A stretch of DNA of 64,000 bases. Source: Thermostichus lividus PCC 6715. GTDB taxonomy: Bacteria; Cyanobacteriota; Cyanobacteriia; Thermosynechococcales; Thermosynechococcaceae. The position numbers were made by a program, and so were the translations under genes. Each line of letters begins with the position of its first letter. Position 1 is the first letter of the stretch. Location of the stretch: positions 1,860,001-1,924,000 of the forward strand of contig NZ_CP018092.1 of NCBI RefSeq assembly GCF_002754935.1, given 5' to 3'. Positions 13,957-23,033 of the stretch are shown here, piece after piece. The notes under the pieces are model-generated. The model saw only the letters and a list, made by a program, of their open reading frames with translations, made no database searches and was not told where the DNA came from.

Positions 13957-14601
13957 TTAATTGAGGAACGTCTTGATGATCCTAAAGGTCAAGTTGATTC
14001 GCGGTGCGACGTTCCTTGACGTTTTTGGAACTTGGTGAAACCAGTAGTGCTGAGTCGCTCCACCCATGATTAACAAACTACCGGCACTGAGATCAAACGA
14101 CACCCTCAGGTGAGGGTTCCTCTTGTGTTTGAATGCAAACCTCCGCGTTGCCCCAAAACTCACTGAGGCAAGGAGCGGGTTCTCTCCTAGCTCCGGCTCA
14201 TCATCACTGTGCCAAGCAACGCTGTCATTTCCATCCCGATAGAGGTTGATCAAGACGCTATTAAAACTCACACCACACACGCTCTCGATAGCGTTTTTAA
14301 TCATCATCAGAGTCGGTGTCCAAGGTTCCGGCTCCATTGTAATTCCTGAGTAGGTGTAGGATTTCCCCGGATCGCCGTGCCAAGCAGTAAGTCTAGGCAC
14401 AAGCATTGTTTTGCCAAATAGGGTGATTGAGTCCTGCCGCCACGGGGTCTGATTCAGCAATTCTGAATAGATGTGTTCACTGTCTATAGCACTGAAAAAT
14501 TGCTCGTAGAATATAACGCTGGCATCAGGGATGTCGATAATTTGGGGTGTAAGCTGGACTGACGCGTCCTGAGAGTCCAAGAAATTGAGCTGCTGCATCA
14601 C
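13957..14601 (-). CDS. alkB: AlkB-like 2-oxoglutarate/Fe(II) dioxygenase
   Basis: This 214-residue dioxygenase should directly reverse alkyl damage on nucleic-acid bases. The iron ligands are His131 and Asp133 (WHSDDE) and His189 (WFHQVPK). Arg201 and Arg207, in RINLTFR, fit the 2-oxoglutarate and substrate positions. It resembles the short AlkB2/ABH2-type proteins rather than E. coli AlkB. It is convergent with the recombinase gene and divergent from the VWA/tubulin-like operon. Its GC content is somewhat lower than that of the genes to its left. Confidence 0.9.
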   Translation of the reverse strand: MMQQLNFLDSQDASVQLTPQIIDIPDASVIFYEQFFSAIDSEHIYSELLNQTPWRQDSITLFGKTMLVPRLTAWHGDPGKSYTYSGITMEPEPWTPTLMMIKNAIESVCGVSFNSVLINLYRDGNDSVAWHSDDEPELGENPLLASVSFGATRRFAFKHKRNPHLRVSFDLSAGSLLIMGGATQHYWFHQVPKTSRNVAPRINLTFRIIKTFLN

Positions 14602-14686
14602 TCGCCACCGACGACTACTCCTATCCTGTCACGTCATCTCAGTCTAACGGACATTTTTGAACGAGGCAGGGCTAGGGCAGAAGGGG

Positions 14687-14715
14687 CTGACATTTGAGCG
14701 CTGACATCCTAATAT
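14687..14715 (+). promoter_or_regulatory. sigma70-type promoter of the VWA/tubulin-like operon
   Basis: CTGACA (14687-14692) and TAATAT (14710-14715) are separated by exactly 17 bases, close to the ideal -35/-10 arrangement. A start site near 14722 would give a leader of about 20 nt before the ATG at 14743. No obvious operator palindrome is visible next to it. Confidence 0.5.
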
Positions 14716-14742
14716 CAAAACAACTTTGGGCATACTTTCCCT

Positions 14743-15843
14743 ATGACTTCCCCTGTCGTTCTTGGTAATCGACCTTTAAGCCCTCTACAACAGAAAGGAC
14801 TGGATTGGGTGCAGTTATGGGGAGGTCGAGATGTGGCACTGGCGATCGACCTGACGGAAAGCGTAGGTCTTAACGATTCGGGACGGCTCCACTTGCGCCA
14901 CATTGTTGAACAAACCCTTAATAAAGGGGACACAATCCATATTATTCCCTTTGCTACGACGGTGCGATCGCCCATTACGATTGAGTATCAAGGGGAACAG
15001 GACATTCCCAAAATTTTAGAAGTCATTCCCATGGATGCTGGGCCCGAGCGCGGCACCGATATTCAATGTGCTGAGCTTTACGTTTATCGGTACCTTGCGC
15101 AACTGAATCAAAGGCGACTTCAACAGCAACAGCCCATTAAGGCACAGTCAGTCATTTGGTTAACCGATGCCCCCCTGAACATTCCTCAAGGTGAATCACA
15201 ACGGTGGACTGAAGCTCCCAATAGCCCCTGCGGCATCCATAACAGCTCTAGGGCAGATGAGCGGAGCCAATGGCTGGGGACCTTACCCATGACCCAACGC
15301 AGTATCCAGCCGGGGCAGTTTCAGCTTACTGTTGTTGATATTCCTCCGACCGTACAGGAATTTTGTACCCCCAAACCCGGTGGTGGTGAAGTCTGCCTTG
15401 TGAATAGCTACCTTTGGGGACAACTTTGGTGGCAACTGCTGCTAGTGAGTTTGCTTGGAATGGTTGTGGGAGGCGGCGGCCTGTTTTTCTTCATTCGCTG
15501 GCTGAGACAGCAACTTCCGTGGACAGTTACGGTGGCGGTGGGTGACCAAGAATACAGATTTCCCCTCAAACATGCTGGAAAAATTGGTCTAGGAGAGCTG
15601 GTTTCCGGATCGCTGTACTTCGTCTCCCTACCTTGTTCAGAAGCTGTTGGCTTTTTACTCCGCCAGCACAACACGCTGCGCATCGGTACAGTCCACCCAG
15701 CAAAACTCACATACAGAGGCCAGCAAATTTACACAAATGTCAATGGTCAAGAAATTGATACAAATGTATTTATACCAAGAAACAATGAATTTGTTATAGT
15801 TACCTATAACGATATCGATATCCAGATCACCATCACAATGTAG
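14743..15843 (+). CDS. VWA-domain membrane protein, first gene of the tubulin-like operon
   Basis: Residues about 28-205 form a von Willebrand factor A domain with an apparently complete MIDAS metal site: Asp36-x-Thr38-x-Ser40 in DLTES, Thr105 in GTD and Asp142 in LTDAP. A single membrane helix spans about 228-251 and is followed by basic residues and a beta-rich domain of about 115 residues. There is no N-terminal signal peptide, so topology is uncertain: positive charges after the helix favour a cytosolic C-terminus. VWA domains with MIDAS sites usually act as metal-dependent protein-binding scaffolds. It is 36 bp upstream of the tubulin-like gene. I do not recognise a characterised homologue of the full protein. 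Confidence 0.8.
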   Translation: MTSPVVLGNRPLSPLQQKGLDWVQLWGGRDVALAIDLTESVGLNDSGRLHLRHIVEQTLNKGDTIHIIPFATTVRSPITIEYQGEQDIPKILEVIPMDAGPERGTDIQCAELYVYRYLAQLNQRRLQQQQPIKAQSVIWLTDAPLNIPQGESQRWTEAPNSPCGIHNSSRADERSQWLGTLPMTQRSIQPGQFQLTVVDIPPTVQEFCTPKPGGGEVCLVNSYLWGQLWWQLLLVSLLGMVVGGGGLFFFIRWLRQQLPWTVTVAVGDQEYRFPLKHAGKIGLGELVSGSLYFVSLPCSEAVGFLLRQHNTLRIGTVHPAKLTYRGQQIYTNVNGQEIDTNVFIPRNNEFVIVTYNDIDIQITITM

Positions 15844-15879
15844 GTTTCGTGTTTAAAGCCTGAGTCATAGGGGAGCTTC

Positions 15880-18800
15880 ATGGCAAGCATAGAAGAGTCA
15901 AACAGTCTGTTTTCTGTCACGCGGTCGATCTGTGTGGGCATTGGTGGCACAGGGCGGGATGTCTTGGTTCGCATTCGCGAGAACATTGTTGATGCATTTG
16001 GCTCCCTTGCCGATTTACCCATCATTAGTTTTGTCCAGATAGACACCGATCGCGGCGGCTCCATTCCCAACTATCGCGGCCAAAACATTAGTTTTACACC
16101 CTCAGAAATTGTGCATATCAAAGTTTCCTTAAATCAGGTAAATCAATTTAGGCAGAACTTTGATACTCGCAGTGGAAATGAGCATATTGACACTCCTGAT
16201 GACAATATTCTAGAGTGGTTTCCCCCTGAACTCATCAAAAACTTGCAGGCCATTGAAAATGGAGCAGGAGCCGTTCGAGCCATAGGGCGGTTTGCGCTGT
16301 TCAAAAATTATCAGAAGGTTGTTGAGAGTCTCCAACAAGCTCATCACCGGGTTCTGAGTGCTAATGTTCAGTCGCTCATTGAGCGTGGCATGGATGTCAA
16401 GCCGGGGCTGCGGGTCTTTGTTGCGGGTTCCCTTTGCGGTGGCACCGGTGGTGGAATGTTTCTAGATATGGGCTATATCCTACGTCAGCTTTTTGCAAGG
16501 GGAGTGGCAGACTTTGAAACCCATGGCTATTTCATTATCTGTCCAGAGCTTTACGGCGGCAATCAGCATGTTAAAGCCAATACCTATGCTGCCCTAAAAG
16601 AACTAGACTTCTACAATCGTTTTGGGACGACCTTTGAGGCTCAGTATCCGGGGCAATTTCGTCTGCGGGAGCAGCGAGAACCCTATAACTATACTTACCT
16701 GATTTCTAACGCTACGCCCGGCAATACGTTTATTATCCCACCCAGCGCTGAAGCTAAAGAACAAATTACGAACAACATTGCTCAAAAAATTTGTCTCTCT
16801 TTTAGTAGCAATGCGACAGCTGCTGCTGAAATTTCTGCACGGGATAACCTGAAGGCTATTGATGGCGGGGAGGAGGCATACGATAGGCATCCTCGCCCTA
16901 ATCGCCAACGGTATATGACAATGGGGTTGGCTAGTATTTATTTTCCCCAAGAGCAGATCAGTGCGCTTGCTGCTAATCAGGTTAAAATCGAGGTTTTGGA
17001 ATTTTGGGAAAGCGGTTTAGGGACAGCCCCTAGTGCCGCTCAGATCCAGCGGGTTTTTGCTGGGCGCTGCGCTTGGGAAACAGACAGTGTAGGTGCACTG
17101 CTGAAAAAACGCCTTGAGACCCTAGAGACTTCAGGGACGACGGTTCAAGCAAAGATTACCCAATGGCACAACAATCAGTATGCTGCTATCAGTGCAGCCC
17201 GCTCCGTTGCAGAGCAGGATAATCTCAAGGTAACCTTGCCCCAAAATTTTGCTGCTTTAGCGAGCTATGTTCGCCTTGGAGACAATGCCAAGGAAAGGGG
17301 TGTATGGCTAGCACCGCTGGTAGAGCAAACCTCAGGGGTCATTACCGACATCAAAGATAGTATCAATGTATTCTTAGCGCAAATACTACAACCAGATCAT
17401 GAATTTTTTGGGCTTGAGAATGGGCTATCTTGGCTGCAACACCTAAAGCAGACCTTTGAACGCGCCCGTGGAGAACAACTGCAAGATAAGAAGCGGCCCG
17501 TTGATCCCAGCGGTGAGCTAAATGGCATTACCCAGCGGATGCAGCATGAGGTACAGGCTATCCGCAGCCAGCGATTTCCTTGGTGGGGTAAGACAGGCAA
17601 AATTCAAGTGGCATTTCGCACGGCAGTTGATCAGGTGACGGCTCTAGCCAAGAAAAATTACCAGTGGCAAATTTCTCGTCAGGTGCAGTTAGCAGCGGAA
17701 GAGCTGATTGAGTTTACAAATCAAAAAATTGCTGCACTAGATAACCTCAGAAACAGTATCCATAATGAGATTATTGAGCTACAAAGTAATGCTGATAGAC
17801 TCACTCAAACCAACGTTAAAAAGCGTATCGGTTTATTAATCATCTCAGCGCAAGATACGCAGCAGTTAGTTGAAGCGGTGTTACCGCCTCAGAGTTCAGA
17901 GCGTCGCTTGGCATTGAACCGGATTTCCACCCAAATCATTCAGAACTCTACTCTTGTCAATAGTGATGAGCGCCCCAGTCTAGAGCGCTTTTTGCAGAAC
18001 CAGTTTGAGCCAGCAGATGTTCGTCAGGCATTAAATAGAGTGGTTGATCAGGGGACTACAACGCAGATGAAAAAACTGCGCAAGTCAGCAGTTCAGCAGT
18101 TTATGGCAACGATGGGAAGCCGCCAGCAGCTACTAGCTTACCTTACAGAACTCAGTCAGCAGTCCGAAGTGTTATTGCCCTTGAACCTTGACGATGGCTA
18201 TTTTAATAAAGCCGACTACAAGCAATCTAGGATTATTGCTTACCATCAGCCTAACGATGACTCCTCGGTAGAAGCTTTTCAGCAGTTGCTACAAGAGAGT
18301 GATGTTTTGAGAAATGCTCGAGTGGTGCCACTTCCAGATTCCGAGCAGCATCATGTCATTTTTGTGACGGAGTATGCAGCTTTTCCCCTACGGCTGATCA
18401 ATAGTTTAGAGCATGGGGGGCTAAAGTATGCCTATGAGTCAACAAAAGGAAGATACTTACACACCAATAAAAATATTGAGCCCAGTTTGACAGATGTTTT
18501 GCCACCTCCTCCCGACGTGGTTATAACAGTGAAAGAATTGTTTTTTAAGTGCTTGGGACTGGGGATATTCGATGGCCGAGATAATGGTGATTTGAGTTTA
18601 TTGAGCCATAGTAAGAGGATTTTTCTGGGTAAAGATTGGTCAGCCATCATTGATCAACTGAGCTGGGCGCAGGTGCAAAAAGCGCAGGAAAATGGGGCAA
18701 GCCTAACCCTAACTGATTTTTTGGGTCAACAGTGTAGTCAAAAGATTCAGCAGCTCGTCGAGAACCCATCAGATTGGTATGGCGATTCTGAAAGAAACTA

Positions 18801-19044
18801 TGTGGGACAGCGCCAGAAAGTTGAGGCACTAATCAGTGAAATTCGCAATTATCCTAGAGAGCATATCAACTATTCATGGGTTGCTAGTGTTGCAGGAAAG
18901 GATATTGAAAACATTACTGGTTTTGAGAAAAAAGGAATTTTGCAAGAGTTAATCCAAGAAATAGATAGGCGAATAGAACAAAAAATAAAGACAATAGAGG
19001 GGACAGTAACAATCGAGCAAGAACCACCACTTTTACCAGATTAG
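15880..19044 (+). CDS. large tubulin-like GTPase (Tubulin_2 type)
   Basis: This 1054-residue protein has the nucleotide-binding features of the tubulin/FtsZ superfamily: an N-terminal GIGGTG loop (20-25), QIDTDRGG near residue 54, and the tubulin signature CGGTGGGMF, with GGTGGG at 187-192. The segment KANTYAALKELDFYN near 230 fits the Tubulin_2 (PF13809) family. The GTPase-like region covers roughly the first 400 residues. The remaining 650 are mostly helical and Gln-rich, with no recognised domain. It is far longer than FtsZ. A GGGGAGC ribosome-binding site precedes the ATG. It probably acts with the neighbouring VWA and stator-like proteins at the membrane. Polymerisation and GTP hydrolysis are inferred, not shown. 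Confidence 0.82.
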   Translation: MASIEESNSLFSVTRSICVGIGGTGRDVLVRIRENIVDAFGSLADLPIISFVQIDTDRGGSIPNYRGQNISFTPSEIVHIKVSLNQVNQFRQNFDTRSGNEHIDTPDDNILEWFPPELIKNLQAIENGAGAVRAIGRFALFKNYQKVVESLQQAHHRVLSANVQSLIERGMDVKPGLRVFVAGSLCGGTGGGMFLDMGYILRQLFARGVADFETHGYFIICPELYGGNQHVKANTYAALKELDFYNRFGTTFEAQYPGQFRLREQREPYNYTYLISNATPGNTFIIPPSAEAKEQITNNIAQKICLSFSSNATAAAEISARDNLKAIDGGEEAYDRHPRPNRQRYMTMGLASIYFPQEQISALAANQVKIEVLEFWESGLGTAPSAAQIQRVFAGRCAWETDSVGALLKKRLETLETSGTTVQAKITQWHNNQYAAISAARSVAEQDNLKVTLPQNFAALASYVRLGDNAKERGVWLAPLVEQTSGVITDIKDSINVFLAQILQPDHEFFGLENGLSWLQHLKQTFERARGEQLQDKKRPVDPSGELNGITQRMQHEVQAIRSQRFPWWGKTGKIQVAFRTAVDQVTALAKKNYQWQISRQVQLAAEELIEFTNQKIAALDNLRNSIHNEIIELQSNADRLTQTNVKKRIGLLIISAQDTQQLVEAVLPPQSSERRLALNRISTQIIQNSTLVNSDERPSLERFLQNQFEPADVRQALNRVVDQGTTTQMKKLRKSAVQQFMATMGSRQQLLAYLTELSQQSEVLLPLNLDDGYFNKADYKQSRIIAYHQPNDDSSVEAFQQLLQESDVLRNARVVPLPDSEQHHVIFVTEYAAFPLRLINSLEHGGLKYAYESTKGRYLHTNKNIEPSLTDVLPPPPDVVITVKELFFKCLGLGIFDGRDNGDLSLLSHSKRIFLGKDWSAIIDQLSWAQVQKAQENGASLTLTDFLGQQCSQKIQQLVENPSDWYGDSERNYVGQRQKVEALISEIRNYPREHINYSWVASVAGKDIENITGFEKKGILQELIQEIDRRIEQKIKTIEGTVTIEQEPPLLPD

Positions 19045-19069
19045 AATTAACCATATTTTTGAGACGATA

Positions 19070-21163
19070 ATGATTGAATTATTTATGCAAGAGGTGATTA
19101 ATTCACCTATCCTCTTAGGCTTTATTTCTGCATCATTGGGGATCGCCCTTGTAAGTTTTTTGCTTCGGATATCCCTGTTTAACCGCTTAATGTTTCTCAA
19201 CCGCTGGGATTGGGCAGTTGCAGCAACTACAGATCAAGCGCCACAACTGATTCAGCGACTGCGCGATCGCATGAAACGCTACGTCGAGAACCTAGACGAG
19301 GTAAATACTTTTGCCTTGGTGGACTATACCCTAGCTCAAGAGCGGGTGCTAGGGCTTTCCTTTGAGCAAGCAGAATACATTACTCGTGTAAGTCCTAATC
19401 TGCTGATTGCCATCGGCCTATTGGGTACATTTCTAGGAATTACGATGAATCTTGTGGGGATCACGATTAGTCTCCCCGAAATTATGACTGGTCTCTTTGC
19501 TTTGAAAGAAAATGGATTAGAGCGTACGGATTCTCTCCTTCAGTTACTCAGTCAATTGCGTGAACCATTGATGGGAATGTCGATCGCCTTCATTTCCAGT
19601 CTTGCTAGCCTGACCTTGGGTATTTTTCTGACTGTTGTAAATTCACTGTTTAATACAACGCTAGCACGGCAACGCTTTTTTACGGCTGTCGAACTCTATC
19701 TTGATAATGAATTAGCCAGCCATCAACGCACACCAACCGCACGCTTACTCAGCGAAATATCGCGTAATTTTGATATTTTTCTTACTAATTTTGAGGCGAC
19801 AGTTACCAGGGCAATTGAGCGGCCATTAGAGCGAGAAGCAGAACGTATGACCCAGATTCAGCGCCAGACGGCTGATCTTGCAAGGGACGTGTACAATCGG
19901 TTCATGGATGCATCGGGTAACATTGTGACAGGGTCTCGTATTTTTGAGCAGGCTGTTACCGTCTTAGAACAGAGTCAGTTTGCTGATAAACTGAACACTG
20001 CAACAACACAGATGTGCCAATTTATTGATCAGTTGACTGAGGTGACAGCGCGATCGCAACAACTGAGTAATGAAGTTATTGAACTCACTCAAGCGGTCAT
20101 GCTGACGCAAGAGTATATATGCCAAACCATGGAGAAGGTTAATAAAACACAAACTGATTTTGAGGCAATTTCGCAGAGACTATTTACAACAACTCAGACC
20201 TTTATTCAAATTGACCAATTGGTTCAGCATTTACTTACCCAAATTGAAGCGGTAGATCGCCAAGTTATCGCTAAATCTGAAGAGTTATCACAGATTACGC
20301 AAAAATTAACTGGTTTGACTGAAATTGCTCAAGAATTCCAAAAAACTTTAGGGCAAAACCAAGAGGAACTAAAAGTACTTCTGTCCTCTGTTGAGCAAAT
20401 GAATAACCAAGTTGCACAGAACCTATTAAGAGGTAATGAGATACTGCAACAGATTCACAGCAATAATCAGCACACTAGCCAGCAACTAGTAAGTGCTTTT
20501 GATGCTGCCAGTGTTAATCTTGACCAATTGAGTAGAGCCTCTTCTCGTATAACCGAGTTTAGTGAAATTATTAACCATGAGTATAATGATTTGAACAAGC
20601 AATTAAAAGATGTTAAAACTAGCTTTGAAAATTACATAACTCAGCGGTCTACTGCTGAGAGCGATCGCCAAAGACAGGCTCAAATTCTTAATGATAGGCT
20701 TGATAGAAAGATCAATCAGGCTGTTAGTCAATTTGAATCTTTTCATCAAGAATTAAAGCAACTCAATAAAGTGCTAAGTACCGAGTATAATGATCTAAAC
20801 CAGAACTTAGCTGAGGCTAAAATTAACTTTGAAAATTATAGAAAGCAGTACTCTAGTGATGAAGGCGATCGCCGAAAACAGATTAATGCTCTTAATGATC
20901 ACCTTCAGCAAAGTTTTAACGAATTCAAGAAGATCAATGAATTTCTTGATAAATTTAATGAATTTGAATTATTGAGCAAATTAGTTGATAAGCTTGAAAC
21001 CCTAGATAAGGGAATTAAGTTGCTAAATCAAGAATTAAATCAAGTTGGTACTGCGATTAGTCAATTGGATAACAATTTTAGGGATCAGCCTAATACTTTG
21101 AATAAAAACGCAGATGCTTCAAAAGTAGCCGAAAAGCGAACAAAAAACCTTGACTTTAGCTAA
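19070..21163 (+). CDS. MotA/ExbB/ZorA-like channel with long coiled-coil tail
   Basis: Three membrane helices are visible at about residues 13-33, 111-133 and 167-193. The second carries the stator-type motif GLLGTFLGI found in MotA, TolQ, ExbB and ZorA. From about residue 230 to 697 the protein is a continuous Gln/Asn/Leu-rich helical tail of coiled-coil character. This architecture, a small channel with a very long intracellular tail, is that of ZorA in Zorya defence systems and unlike MotA or ExbB, which lack the tail. The 3' third is strongly AT-rich. It lies 25 bp after the tubulin-like gene and 35 bp before its presumed partner. I infer an ion-driven rotary motor subunit. Confidence 0.8.
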   Translation: MIELFMQEVINSPILLGFISASLGIALVSFLLRISLFNRLMFLNRWDWAVAATTDQAPQLIQRLRDRMKRYVENLDEVNTFALVDYTLAQERVLGLSFEQAEYITRVSPNLLIAIGLLGTFLGITMNLVGITISLPEIMTGLFALKENGLERTDSLLQLLSQLREPLMGMSIAFISSLASLTLGIFLTVVNSLFNTTLARQRFFTAVELYLDNELASHQRTPTARLLSEISRNFDIFLTNFEATVTRAIERPLEREAERMTQIQRQTADLARDVYNRFMDASGNIVTGSRIFEQAVTVLEQSQFADKLNTATTQMCQFIDQLTEVTARSQQLSNEVIELTQAVMLTQEYICQTMEKVNKTQTDFEAISQRLFTTTQTFIQIDQLVQHLLTQIEAVDRQVIAKSEELSQITQKLTGLTEIAQEFQKTLGQNQEELKVLLSSVEQMNNQVAQNLLRGNEILQQIHSNNQHTSQQLVSAFDAASVNLDQLSRASSRITEFSEIINHEYNDLNKQLKDVKTSFENYITQRSTAESDRQRQAQILNDRLDRKINQAVSQFESFHQELKQLNKVLSTEYNDLNQNLAEAKINFENYRKQYSSDEGDRRKQINALNDHLQQSFNEFKKINEFLDKFNEFELLSKLVDKLETLDKGIKLLNQELNQVGTAISQLDNNFRDQPNTLNKNADASKVAEKRTKNLDFS

Positions 21164-21198
21164 TTGCTTGCTTTCCCTCCCTGTTTAGAAGGATTCCT

Positions 21199-21852
21199 AT
21201 GCGTCAGTCACGTCGCTCGTCACCCCCAGAATCAGAGCAATTCGACATCTGGATTTCCTACACTGATTTAATGTCAAATAGCTTTTTGATCTTGAGCCTC
21301 ATTACTCTGCTTTTAATTATTTTCACATTTTTTGCGCGGCAGACAGATTCTCTTCCCCCGATTATTATAATTCCTGATAATGAGGCTTTTCGCTTTCCGG
21401 TGGGCAGTGCCAAGGTGTCTAAACCTCTACAGCAATACATTTGGACTAGTTTAGCCAAAACGATCCGTGACAATCACAAACGATACAGGATTGATACCGT
21501 GGAAATTATTGGTCATACCGATGGGCAACCCAACCGAAGGAGTAGCAGCAACCTCGACTTAGTTCTGGAGCAGTCGGCAGCGGCAAATACCCTTGGCCGT
21601 CTCACTCCTGGCTCCAATGCTGATTTGGGATTAATGCGAGCACTGGCGATCGCCAACGAACTGCGCAAGGTGCAAGCCACGAACCCCGAACTCAAAAATC
21701 TACAGTTTTATGCCTATTCTGCCGGACAACTTTACCTGCTTAACGGTAACCTTGCCCCACCAAATCGCAATCCAGATAGCTCTCGCCGTCGGATTGAGGT
21801 ACGCTTTACGCGCAGACGCGAGAGAGAGACACAAGTTGCCCCCGTAAACTAG
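21199..21852 (+). CDS. MotB/OmpA/ZorB-like peptidoglycan-binding stator protein
   Basis: This 217-residue protein has one membrane helix (about 26-46) preceded by WISYTDLMSNSF. Asp23 occupies the position of the proton-carrying Asp of MotB and ZorB. The C-terminal half is an OmpA/MotB peptidoglycan-binding domain: IIGHTDG (103-109), NLDL just after it, and a terminal RRIEVRFT. The short linker and size resemble ZorB. An AGAAGGATT ribosome-binding site lies upstream of the ATG. With the preceding channel gene it should form a peptidoglycan-anchored, ion-driven stator, with the domain in the periplasm. Confidence 0.83.
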   Translation: MRQSRRSSPPESEQFDIWISYTDLMSNSFLILSLITLLLIIFTFFARQTDSLPPIIIIPDNEAFRFPVGSAKVSKPLQQYIWTSLAKTIRDNHKRYRIDTVEIIGHTDGQPNRRSSSNLDLVLEQSAAANTLGRLTPGSNADLGLMRALAIANELRKVQATNPELKNLQFYAYSAGQLYLLNGNLAPPNRNPDSSRRRIEVRFTRRRERETQVAPVN

Positions 21853-23033
21853 CTGCGGCGTGCTTGTAAAACGCTTTGGGCTGAAAGGCCATCGCTGCCA
21901 TTGCCGATATACCATAGCGCCATGGCTGCTTCGGCATGGCTCACCGCTTTCTTGGGTTGCAGCAGTAGGGTTTGCCCCCACACCCGGCGAATATTAGAGA
22001 GATCGCCAGCAAGGTAGTCAGCAGCCACAGCGTTGACTGCGCTCGGGGCAATACGGGTGCTGTCTTTGAAGCCCCACGTTTGCTGGATGCGATCGATGGT
22101 GCTGGGGCTGAGCTGCCCCTGTTGATCAAGGGGAACCTTCCACTGCAAGAGGGTTTCGCGATTGAGGGGGGCATCGGGACGAAACAAAGCACTCGCATCA
22201 CCGGTTAGCGGGCTAGGTAAAAATCCAGCCATGGCCAAGCCCTGAATATAGGCAAAATCAGGATGTTGGCGGGGCACGTCTCGAAAAACCGGATCATCGT
22301 TACTGGTGCCTAGGCGAATTTGGCGAGCGGGGCGATCTTCGTAAAATCGGTTGTAGGTAGTCACCAACCAGCGGACAAATTGACTGCGGCTAATTGGGCT
22401 ATTGGGATCTAGCTGATTGCCGGAGGTGGGCAATGTGCCCAGTTCCGCTAGTTCGCGGATGGCGGGCTGGAATGGTGTGGGAGCAGCATCAAGATCACTG
22501 AAGGTTTGCGGGGTGAGTGCCGTTGTTGGCGATGGCGTTGGCGCGGACTCTCCATTAGTCGTTGTGGGTCGATAGGCTACGGTAAATTCAGTGGTGTTAT
22601 TGGTGGTGGCGGTGTTAATGGTTACCGTTACTTCTAAATCGGCACCAACGCCCTTGAGGGTCATGCTGTTATCAGCAACCTGTTGTTCAACCAGCCGCCA
22701 GTTAGTTTGCTGAAACTGTTCGCTATAGAACTGCTGAATGGCGATCGCTGGTGCTGAGGCTTGCCAGCGGGTTTGAATTGTGTTCGGATCGTTGGCAAGG
22801 GGCTGAGTCTCTAGGAGTGTGGCATTGGGGAAGCGCAGGGTCTGGGGCAAGGTTGTGGTGGCAGGACTAGGGGATGGGCTGGCGCCCCACTGATCGGCAT
22901 TGGAATCGGCGGCAAACAGGTTTTGCAGGCCACTGCCTTCGCAACTGGTTAGCAACAGGACACAAAGGATTAAACTGACGCGCACAAGGGGCGATCGCGA
23001 ACTCTTCAACGGAACCGATACCTCACAAATCAT
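21849..23033 (-). CDS. SLH-domain lipoprotein
   Basis: The product has a lipoprotein signal ending in the lipobox LLTSC near residue 30. A Ser/Pro/Thr-rich linker and a region of about 100 residues (QFYSEQFQQTNWRLV...) follow. From about residue 190 onward are S-layer-homology repeats (FSDLD...AIRELAELG; SRSQFVRWLV; FRDVPRQHPDFAYIQGLAMAGFL), as in proteins that touch the cell wall. The ATG at 23033 is preferred because it puts the signal peptide at the N-terminus; the frame is open 13 codons further. It overlaps the stop of the ZorB-like gene by 4 bp on the opposite strand and follows a small gene by 8 bp, probably in one transcript. Confidence 0.8.
   Translation of the reverse strand: MICEVSVPLKSSRSPLVRVSLILCVLLLTSCEGSGLQNLFAADSNADQWGASPSPSPATTTLPQTLRFPNATLLETQPLANDPNTIQTRWQASAPAIAIQQFYSEQFQQTNWRLVEQQVADNSMTLKGVGADLEVTVTINTATTNNTTEFTVAYRPTTTNGESAPTPSPTTALTPQTFSDLDAAPTPFQPAIRELAELGTLPTSGNQLDPNSPISRSQFVRWLVTTYNRFYEDRPARQIRLGTSNDDPVFRDVPRQHPDFAYIQGLAMAGFLPSPLTGDASALFRPDAPLNRETLLQWKVPLDQQGQLSPSTIDRIQQTWGFKDSTRIAPSAVNAVAADYLAGDLSNIRRVWGQTLLLQPKKAVSHAEAAMALWYIGNGSDGLSAQSVLQARRS

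Follow-up and report, generated by a model that had tools for sequence, protein, structure and literature searches.

Operons that join a tubulin-like gene of the Tubulin_2/FtsZl1 family to a vWA gene, with OmpA proteins and kinases, were predicted by Makarova and Koonin in 2010 to serve membrane remodelling; in the review of that paper Jekely proposed transport or signalling (PMC2875224). Here we analyze a related four-gene operon of the cyanobacterium Thermostichus lividus PCC 6715 (genome G000; 2.66 Mb, one contig), located in a 64,000-nucleotide stretch of contig NZ_CP018092.1 (positions 1,860,001 to 1,924,000; the window). The operon encodes a VWA protein, a tubulin-like GTPase and a channel/OmpA pair that, by sequence comparison, resembles ZorA and ZorB, the motor proteins of the Zorya anti-phage system. 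Its genes, in window positions, are:

14743..15843, + strand: gene 1, VWA protein (366 amino acids; boundaries of the open reading frame, ORF, exact)
15880..19044, + strand: gene 2, tubulin-like protein, Tubulin_2/FtsZl1 (1054 amino acids; PF13809, 3.7e-75)
19070..21163, + strand: gene 3, ZorA-type channel by profile searches (697 amino acids)
21199..21852, + strand: gene 4, ZorB-type OmpA protein by profile searches (217 amino acids)

An initial annotation, made from the sequence alone, had described four co-directional ORFs, and their coordinates, all on the + strand, were reproduced exactly, as were the spacings of 36, 25 and 35 bp between genes 1-2, 2-3 and 3-4, which leave no room for an additional gene. 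The same annotation placed the 1054-residue protein in the tubulin superfamily, in agreement with the Tubulin_2 match.

The operons of 2010 share with the window operon a Tubulin_2 protein with a long helical C-terminal part, an adjacent vWA gene with a MIDAS motif and an OmpA-domain gene; their hosts include cyanobacteria, and Thermosynechococcus elongatus appears in an alignment legend in the accessible part of the paper. In that part, the OmpA proteins are read as beta-barrels and MotA is unmentioned. In the window operon, the OmpA protein would instead be one of the two components of a ZorAB-type motor, its channel partner can be named, and a structural model of the tubulin-like protein shows a C-terminal tubulin domain. 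Because the 2010 paper describes an FtsZl1/vWA/OmpA operon, the suggestion that the window holds an undescribed system has to be given up. According to a reviewer's remark in the same paper, a T. elongatus gene lies near the pilin-like tll1019 (PMC2875224); we infer that this context fits a stand-alone Tubulin_2 paralogue better than the window operon. Regarding the kinase frequent in the 2010 operons, a single kinase query (from locus L099) at E <= 1e-8 matched five ORFs in 80 loci, none of them within the unit. A P-loop GTPase is likewise frequent in the 2010 operons, though neither it nor the kinase is obligatory there; the tight spacing of the window genes excludes one between them.

Three further systems come close. 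Zorya (PDB 8VVN, 8VVI, 8QYD; PMC11890865), as far as its accessible description goes, has a comparable long-tailed channel and a ZorB protein with a membrane Asp and a peptidoglycan-binding domain; it differs by ZorC, where the window operon has a tubulin-like GTPase and a VWA-FHA protein. The GAP1-N2 conflict systems likewise combine a tubulin with a C-terminal helical part and vWA genes, one vWA protein being membrane-bound, but belong to Firmicutes and Actinobacteria and include GAP1 GTPases and FNIII proteins, and the accessible text mentions no ZorAB-type motor (PMC7159879). The vWA force transducers resemble the window in that a gene for an inner-membrane 5:2-type motor adjoins that of a membrane-bound vWA protein, and differ, in the sections of the 2025 paper at hand, by an SHLS motif or pore-helix Asp and by TolQ-like motors (PMC12204202). 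The helix of the window vWA protein has neither the SHLS motif nor the Asp; among 24 aligned relatives, L093 was noticed to carry an Asp.

Among the titles and abstracts listed in our literature search, with subscription papers and preprints mostly outside it, no paper joined a ZorAB-type motor to a tubulin-like protein, and the supplements of the 2010 paper may list the channel as an unnamed family. Nor did any of the matches listed give Tubulin_2/FtsZl1 proteins a tested function. As far as searched, the ZorAB-type motor identity, the VWA-FHA build and the split tubulin fold are new, the gene set having been partly described in 2010.

The Four Genes Form a Conserved Unit

In 386 cyanobacterial genomes, the channel domain was matched in 53, the VWA profile in 44 and both in 40, the last figure being obtained by comparing the two lists by hand. 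We examined 69 loci, comprising the window stretch, two genus and 56 phylum channel loci, and ten genus loci at the speA site, where all four genes are missing. The VWA, tubulin and channel genes occur together in 40 of the 59 channel loci, and 38 of these 40 also have the OmpA gene, in a single order and on one strand; the two without the full set stop at contig ends. A survey with the VWA query confirmed 102 places, and the full gene order was found in 64 of the best 80 of them, all with names recognized as cyanobacterial. The two surveys overlap in genomes, and are therefore independent in query, not in genomes. The arrangement recurs far beyond chance and the four genes are a real conserved unit. 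Across the loci of both surveys no fifth gene is conserved with them, no search having been aimed at GAP1 or FNIII.

Incomplete loci can in part be traced to contig ends. Ten of the 16 VWA loci without the full order lie near one as judged by eye (L107, L110, L130, L134, L142, L159, L162, L167, L173 and L178), and the stretch of L112 ends within the channel gene. The OmpA-like gene lies upstream in L109 and the OmpA gene on the opposite strand in L146; other genes are missing from L144, L172 and L174 although there is sufficient space. On the channel side, only the VWA gene is missing from L056, at a contig end, and L083, L096, L100 and L105 have a channel ORF or fragment alone. In G058 the VWA gene lies on a different contig. 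Forty of the 44 genomes with the VWA gene also have the channel, and in the remaining four the VWA locus is decayed, which strengthens the link of the VWA gene with the rest; motor-only loci weigh the opposite way.

The median gaps in the 64 loci are 18, 80.5 and 65 bp, and all three are below 150 bp in only about half of the loci, so the unit is often loosely packed. The tubulin ORF is short or split in six of 40 loci of the channel survey (L018, L071, L075, L082, L087 and L088) and shorter than 900 residues in three of 64 of the VWA survey (L154, L158 and L160); the channel ORF falls below 440 residues in four of 64 (L118, L127, L141 and L183). Some of these short or split ORFs may be sequencing errors. 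Compared over 58 of 67 systems, the four proteins have correlated pairwise distances (0.72-0.89), for which shared descent alone could suffice.

Sequence Profiles Place Genes 3 and 4 with ZorA and ZorB

The channel protein had been annotated as a three-helix protein with a long coiled-coil tail. In line with this, it has three hydrophobic stretches (19-residue windows starting at residues 9-25, 107-117 and 167-176), followed by a tail at residues ~195-697 (~500 residues). A 117-bp direct repeat (74% identity, 204-bp spacing; window 20579-20899) lies within the part of gene 3 that encodes the coiled-coil tail.

We built a channel-domain profile from the window protein and 25 of 32 other channels, seven of 39 having been dropped first for lack of a simple cutting motif; the other alignments are subsets of 24, 19, 28 and 28 sequences, and residue conservation was counted in 62 of 67 systems (64 for the tubulin). 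Searched against the PDB, the 26-domain profile found ZorA chains as its sole credible matches (8vvn at 2e-7, 8qyy, 8qyk, 8qyh and 8qyd), followed by two unrelated-looking chains at E 0.46 and 0.7, with no MotA, ExbB or TolQ chain at E <= 1. PADLOC ZorA models match 26 of 26 channel domains (best 1.5e-18; ZorA1, PDLC00597, in all 26), and Pfam MotA_ExbB matches six of 26 (best 6.8e-5). Since every PADLOC model is for defence, the PDB search is the less biased comparison. A MotA or ExbB identity of gene 3 is ruled out at the sequence level by the PDB and Pfam results.

Gene 4 encodes a protein with one hydrophobic stretch (windows starting at residues 22-31) and an OmpA match of 1.5e-4, below the Pfam cut-off. 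Its closest PDB relative is ZorB (8vvn_B, 3.5e-7), with PomB chains next from 2e-4, and its top PADLOC match is ZorB1 (5.7e-9). On these profile matches genes 3 and 4 are of the ZorA/ZorB type, not MotA or ExbB, as the initial annotation had proposed. Channel residues T120 and S177 are invariant (62/62 systems), as are D23, H106, T107 and D108 (the HTD of the GHTD motif), N140, D142, R147 and R196-198 of gene 4. Zorya defence requires Asp24 of ZorB, the peptidoglycan contacts and the ZorA tail, according to the accessible part of the structural work (PMC11890865); residues of gene 4 were mapped onto ZorB by motif, the sequence alignment covering only part of the protein. By homology, the pair would form a 5:2 motor and bind peptidoglycan.

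The operon thus contains a ZorA-type channel with a long cytoplasmic tail and a ZorB-type protein with the membrane Asp and, mapped by motif, the peptidoglycan-binding residues. ZorC, with its EH_Signature domain, was not found, in agreement with the initial annotation: a phmmer search with a single ZorC-type query, from L104, gave no match at E <= 1e-3 in the ORFs of the 80 VWA loci, many of which stop within a few kb of the operon, and the same query found L104 itself only among the 69 loci of the channel survey. No PADLOC Zorya model matched the ten window flanking genes at E <= 1e-5, and ZorD and ZorE are absent from the PADLOC matches of these ten genes (in the flanks of 19 systems, 25 of 70 matched families were listed). 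As ZorC was not found, we did not file the operon as Zorya.

Other ZorAB-like loci were met in the survey. L104:9224-13598, in G158, contains ZorA-like, OmpA and EH_Signature (ZorC-type) genes, and G158 has the four-gene set as well (L055). In L099, L101, L102 and L103, a ZorAB-like channel and OmpA pair lies beside a divergent Ser/Thr kinase gene (PF00069 for L099, the other three by similarity to it) with no VWA or tubulin gene. By sequence, these four loci make up another ZorAB-like gene set of cyanobacteria, this one linked to a kinase.

Predicted Structures of the VWA and Tubulin-Like Proteins

The AlphaFold2 model of the gene 1 product (predicted local distance difference test score, pLDDT, 86.6) consists of the following parts:

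Residues ~24-200: VWA domain
Residues ~225-255: membrane helix
Residues 258-366: FHA-like beta domain

A VWA/MIDAS membrane protein had been annotated at this position, and the model agrees: VWA folds align at Z about 9-10, a single membrane helix is present, and the MIDAS residues D36, T38, S40 and D142 are invariant (62/62), with T105 in 59 of 62 (a D-x-T-x-S variant). Pfam did not find the VWA domain in gene 1 alone; VWA_2 matched six of 24 family members at E <= 0.1 (best 2e-4). FHA folds align to the C-terminal domain at Z 9.5-10.8 over residues 257-366, the matches including Rv1747 FHA-1 (Z 10.8, 89 residues, root mean square deviation 2.2), MDC1 and GarA. The usual phosphothreonine-binding residues of FHA domains appear to be lost, as compared by eye. 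Cys208 and Cys218 are both invariant (62/62). No N-terminal hydrophobic stretch exceeds a mean hydropathy of 1.36 over 15 residues, and the net charge is greater behind the helix than ahead of it in 43 of 62 proteins; a Thermus relative seemingly has a lipoprotein-type start, as judged by eye. The VWA protein may sense signals.

For the gene 2 product (pLDDT 80.7, modeled with 28 sequences) the AlphaFold2 model predicts:

Residues ~13-380: GTPase domain
Residues ~380-775: helical insertion
Residues ~780-876: predicted tubulin C-terminal (activation) domain
Remainder: helical tail

The model aligns with tubulins and FtsZ, and with CetZ (3zid) at Z 23.1 over 296 of 342 residues (residues 13-857 of the model). 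The structural alignment reports the first and last aligned residue only; as residues ~380-775 are almost wholly helical, the C-terminal strands of CetZ should match at ~780-876. From the model, we infer a complete tubulin fold that is split by the helical insertion after the helix following strand 345-354. The C-terminal domain is predicted solely from the model and structural alignment, and no similarity emerged when segment 760-880 was compared by profile with three FtsZ sequences. In the accessible parts of the literature, similarity of the C-terminal part of FtsZl1 to the C-terminal domains of FtsZ or tubulin was not detected in 2010 (PMC2875224), and the absence of FtsZ_C and Tubulin_C domains is remarked on in a 2023 paper (PMC9871819). 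The nucleotide loop SLCGGTGxG is nearly invariant in the 64 tubulin sequences, and the T7 catalytic acid, placed by eye from the model helices, is Glu in 60 of 64 and Asn in three of 64, including the window protein (position 311).

Tubulin_2 genes also occur in other settings. G000 has a second one at C1:2655880-2656896 (L004), whose neighborhood, with names assigned by eye, includes yidC-, alr- and pilin-like genes; no partner of the VWA or motor type was recognized there. On the Azospirillum plasmid p2 (L188) one lies among genes annotated as caspase-family, OmpA-family and DUF4384.

Patchy Distribution and Decay of the Operon

Within the genus, the channel gene is found in three of 11 genomes, at three different sites. 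SpeA of the window genome is 96% and 91% identical to that of G008 and G006, respectively, compared with 68% and 65% for gene 1 and, for gene 2, 56% against G008. Such diverged copies at different sites in congeners point to separate acquisition or strong diversification.

A DDE transposase gene (PF01609, 1.1e-26) interrupts the tubulin gene of G006 (L018). Only operon remnants are left in L172, L130 and the second VWA locus of G291 (L219). Parts of the tubulin and channel genes are lost in G258, VWA and tubulin pieces are found in G243 and G364, and a VWA scrap in G100. The decayed copies L214, L215, L216 and L219 (G258, G243, G364 and G291) show mostly internal deletions, with the two ends kept. 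Taken together, the patchy presence, the different sites in congeners and the decay of several copies point to a role that is accessory and possibly defensive.

In four of the 64 loci (L113, L124, L175 and L177) an FtsZ-like gene is located ~4.6-7 kb off the operon, with photosystem- and sigma-factor-like genes close by (names by eye).

Proposed Role and Alternative Explanations

We favor, with a probability of about 0.42, a reading of the operon as a Zorya-like envelope surveillance module with a tubulin-like output instead of a nuclease. The four genes would encode one envelope machine, in which the products of genes 3 and 4 assemble into a ZorAB-type motor, driven by ions and of 5:2 stoichiometry. 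A peptidoglycan-anchored dimer of the gene 4 protein would bind the ion through Asp23, opposite a ring of Thr and Ser residues in the gene 3 pentamer, and the long coiled-coil tail of the pentamer would extend into the cytoplasm. The gene 1 protein would be a membrane platform with its VWA domain on one side and its FHA-like domain on the other, and gene 2 would supply a GTPase of the tubulin superfamily whose tubulin fold is nearly complete. Upon a change in the envelope (phage entry or wall damage), gene 4 might grip the peptidoglycan, ion flow might turn or shift the gene 3 tail, and this movement, relayed by gene 1, might recruit or reorganize the tubulin-like GTPase beneath the membrane. 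The tail-to-tubulin coupling, the trigger and the biological purpose are pure conjecture on our part; we know of no motor-to-tubulin link of this kind. More specifically, torque or tail movement of a rotary, peptidoglycan-anchored ZorAB-type motor might control how a tubulin-like polymer assembles at the membrane, making this assembly the output of an immune module triggered at the envelope; we consider this proposal doubtful.

Recognition of a ZorAB-type motor as the cyanobacterial partner provides a concrete hypothesis for Tubulin_2/FtsZl1 proteins, known since 2010, and makes the predicted gene set testable, down to single residues (Asp23). Motors of the ZorAB type would then not be confined to nuclease effectors, and may represent a reusable envelope sensor with varied cytoplasmic outputs (nuclease, kinase, tubulin).

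In the accessible text of Kaur et al. (2020), sets of tubulin and vWA genes are counted among conflict systems (PMC7159879). Distant relatives of genes 1 and 2 occur with BrxL on three Thermaceae plasmids, annotated as vWA, Tubulin_2, a hypothetical protein (~680 residues) and BrxL. BrxL was confirmed on one of these plasmids, and another encodes a Swt1-HEPN/DUF499 protein and a DUF1156 methyltransferase-like protein. The BrxL cassettes of L187, L209 and L210 (Thermus, Meiothermus and Allomeiothermus plasmids) lie near helicase, exonuclease, methyltransferase or Swt1-HEPN genes. They may represent a defence variant that combines BrxL with a tubulin; the accessible part of a 2026 BREX paper leaves tubulin unmentioned (PMC12839542).

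Other findings weigh against a defensive surveillance module. At E <= 1e-10, 70 PADLOC families were matched by 124 neighbors in the flanks of 19 systems, and 60 by 134 control ORFs from 20 places in genomes carrying the operon; counted as families, not proteins, this is no clear excess of defence genes over the controls. The matches listed (25 of the 70 flank and 25 of the 60 control families) include models for DpdF, type II restriction endonuclease, PsyrT, Csx1, reverse transcriptase and Cas12f in the flanks, and reverse transcriptase, SWIM_XIII, Cas8g, SspA and DndA in the controls; the Cas12f-model matches we take to be TnpB-like. The sole PADLOC match among the ten window flanking genes is an AlkB-like gene (CARF_2OG, via the common oxygenase domain). 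No recognizable nuclease, toxin or other effector was found inside the unit. Genes 1 and 3 had no plasmid match, and gene 2, the only one searched there, no match in phages or viral contigs; its five plasmid matches are all distant (<60% identity). In a mostly Nostocales group the neighbors of the operon are constant, as for a long-term resident, and 14 of the 59 channel loci have a channel and an OmpA gene with no VWA or tubulin gene. We know of no phage test of this four-gene set.

Several of these points are in keeping with envelope or membrane remodelling. On this reading, the ZorAB-type motor would use ion flow to pull a tubulin-like filament or scaffold, or to set its position, at the inner membrane, in a routine accessory function such as vesicle formation or septum or wall maintenance. 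The constant neighbors, the nearby FtsZ-like genes in four of 64 loci, the missing plasmid matches of genes 1 and 3 and viral matches of gene 2, and the complete if split tubulin fold would all suit it, as would the genome-context prediction of 2010, as far as the accessible text shows (PMC2875224). The unit is, on the other hand, dispensable, being patchy in the phylum and the genus and decayed in several genomes, and its carriers within the genus have diverged copies at different sites. We regard remodelling as a serious possibility, held tentatively.

The loci with the motor pair alone or beside a kinase (the 14 of 59) raise the alternative of two independent modules, VWA plus tubulin and the ZorAB-like pair, sharing one operon as separate machines. 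Motorless VWA and tubulin genes on the Thermaceae plasmids, and G064, with VWA and tubulin at L218 and the channel elsewhere at L083, are consistent with this. As nearly all VWA genomes have the channel, with decay in the other four, and as the distances of the four proteins are correlated (shared descent again being a sufficient explanation), we consider two separate machines improbable.

A true Zorya subtype, with VWA and tubulin as alternative effectors, would account for the ZorA/ZorB-type motor genes. The searched loci other than L104 contain no ZorC match and the ten window flanking genes no Zorya model, G158 has both this set (L055) and a separate EH_Signature locus with a ZorA/ZorB-like pair (L104), and VWA and tubulin co-occur elsewhere without a motor; a subtype is therefore very improbable. 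Least probable of all is a surface motility or polar-assembly motor like GldLM or AglRQS, with the tubulin-like protein organizing tracks or filaments: motility, gliding included, is driven by related 5:2 motors in the accessible literature (PMC11890865, PMC12204202) and many hosts of the VWA survey are named as filamentous genera, but conservation extends to no gene beyond the four and the set is present in unicellular Microcystis (L128) and in the small, probably unicellular host of the window.

On balance, a Zorya-like surveillance module with a tubulin-like output is the reading towards which we lean; of the initial interpretation, the ZorAB-like pair, the fixed order and the absence of a detected ZorC stand, and the label "undescribed" does not.

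Promoter-Like Site and Neighboring Genes

Two further features lie upstream of the operon:

14687..14715, + strand: promoter-like site, not above chance (CTGACA, 17 nt, TAATAT; 9/12)
13957..14601, - strand: AlkB-like 2OG-Fe(II) oxygenase gene, outside the conserved unit (PF13532, 3.6e-38)

The sequence annotated as a sigma70-type promoter is present (9/12), but the number of such sites does not rise above chance: this is one of 14 in 14500-22000 on both strands, compared with 11.6 +/- 3.2 in shuffles.

The operon and the AlkB-like gene sit between an integrase-like gene, matched in 11 of 11 genus genomes and broken in some, and an SLH/speA block common to all 11. The AlkB-like gene is matched in one of the 11, the window genome itself, and is perhaps part of the same strain-specific insertion as the operon. 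A stretch of 118 bp from its 3' end region is repeated with 99% identity at G000:C1:1656339-1656456, and is perhaps the trace of a mobile element.

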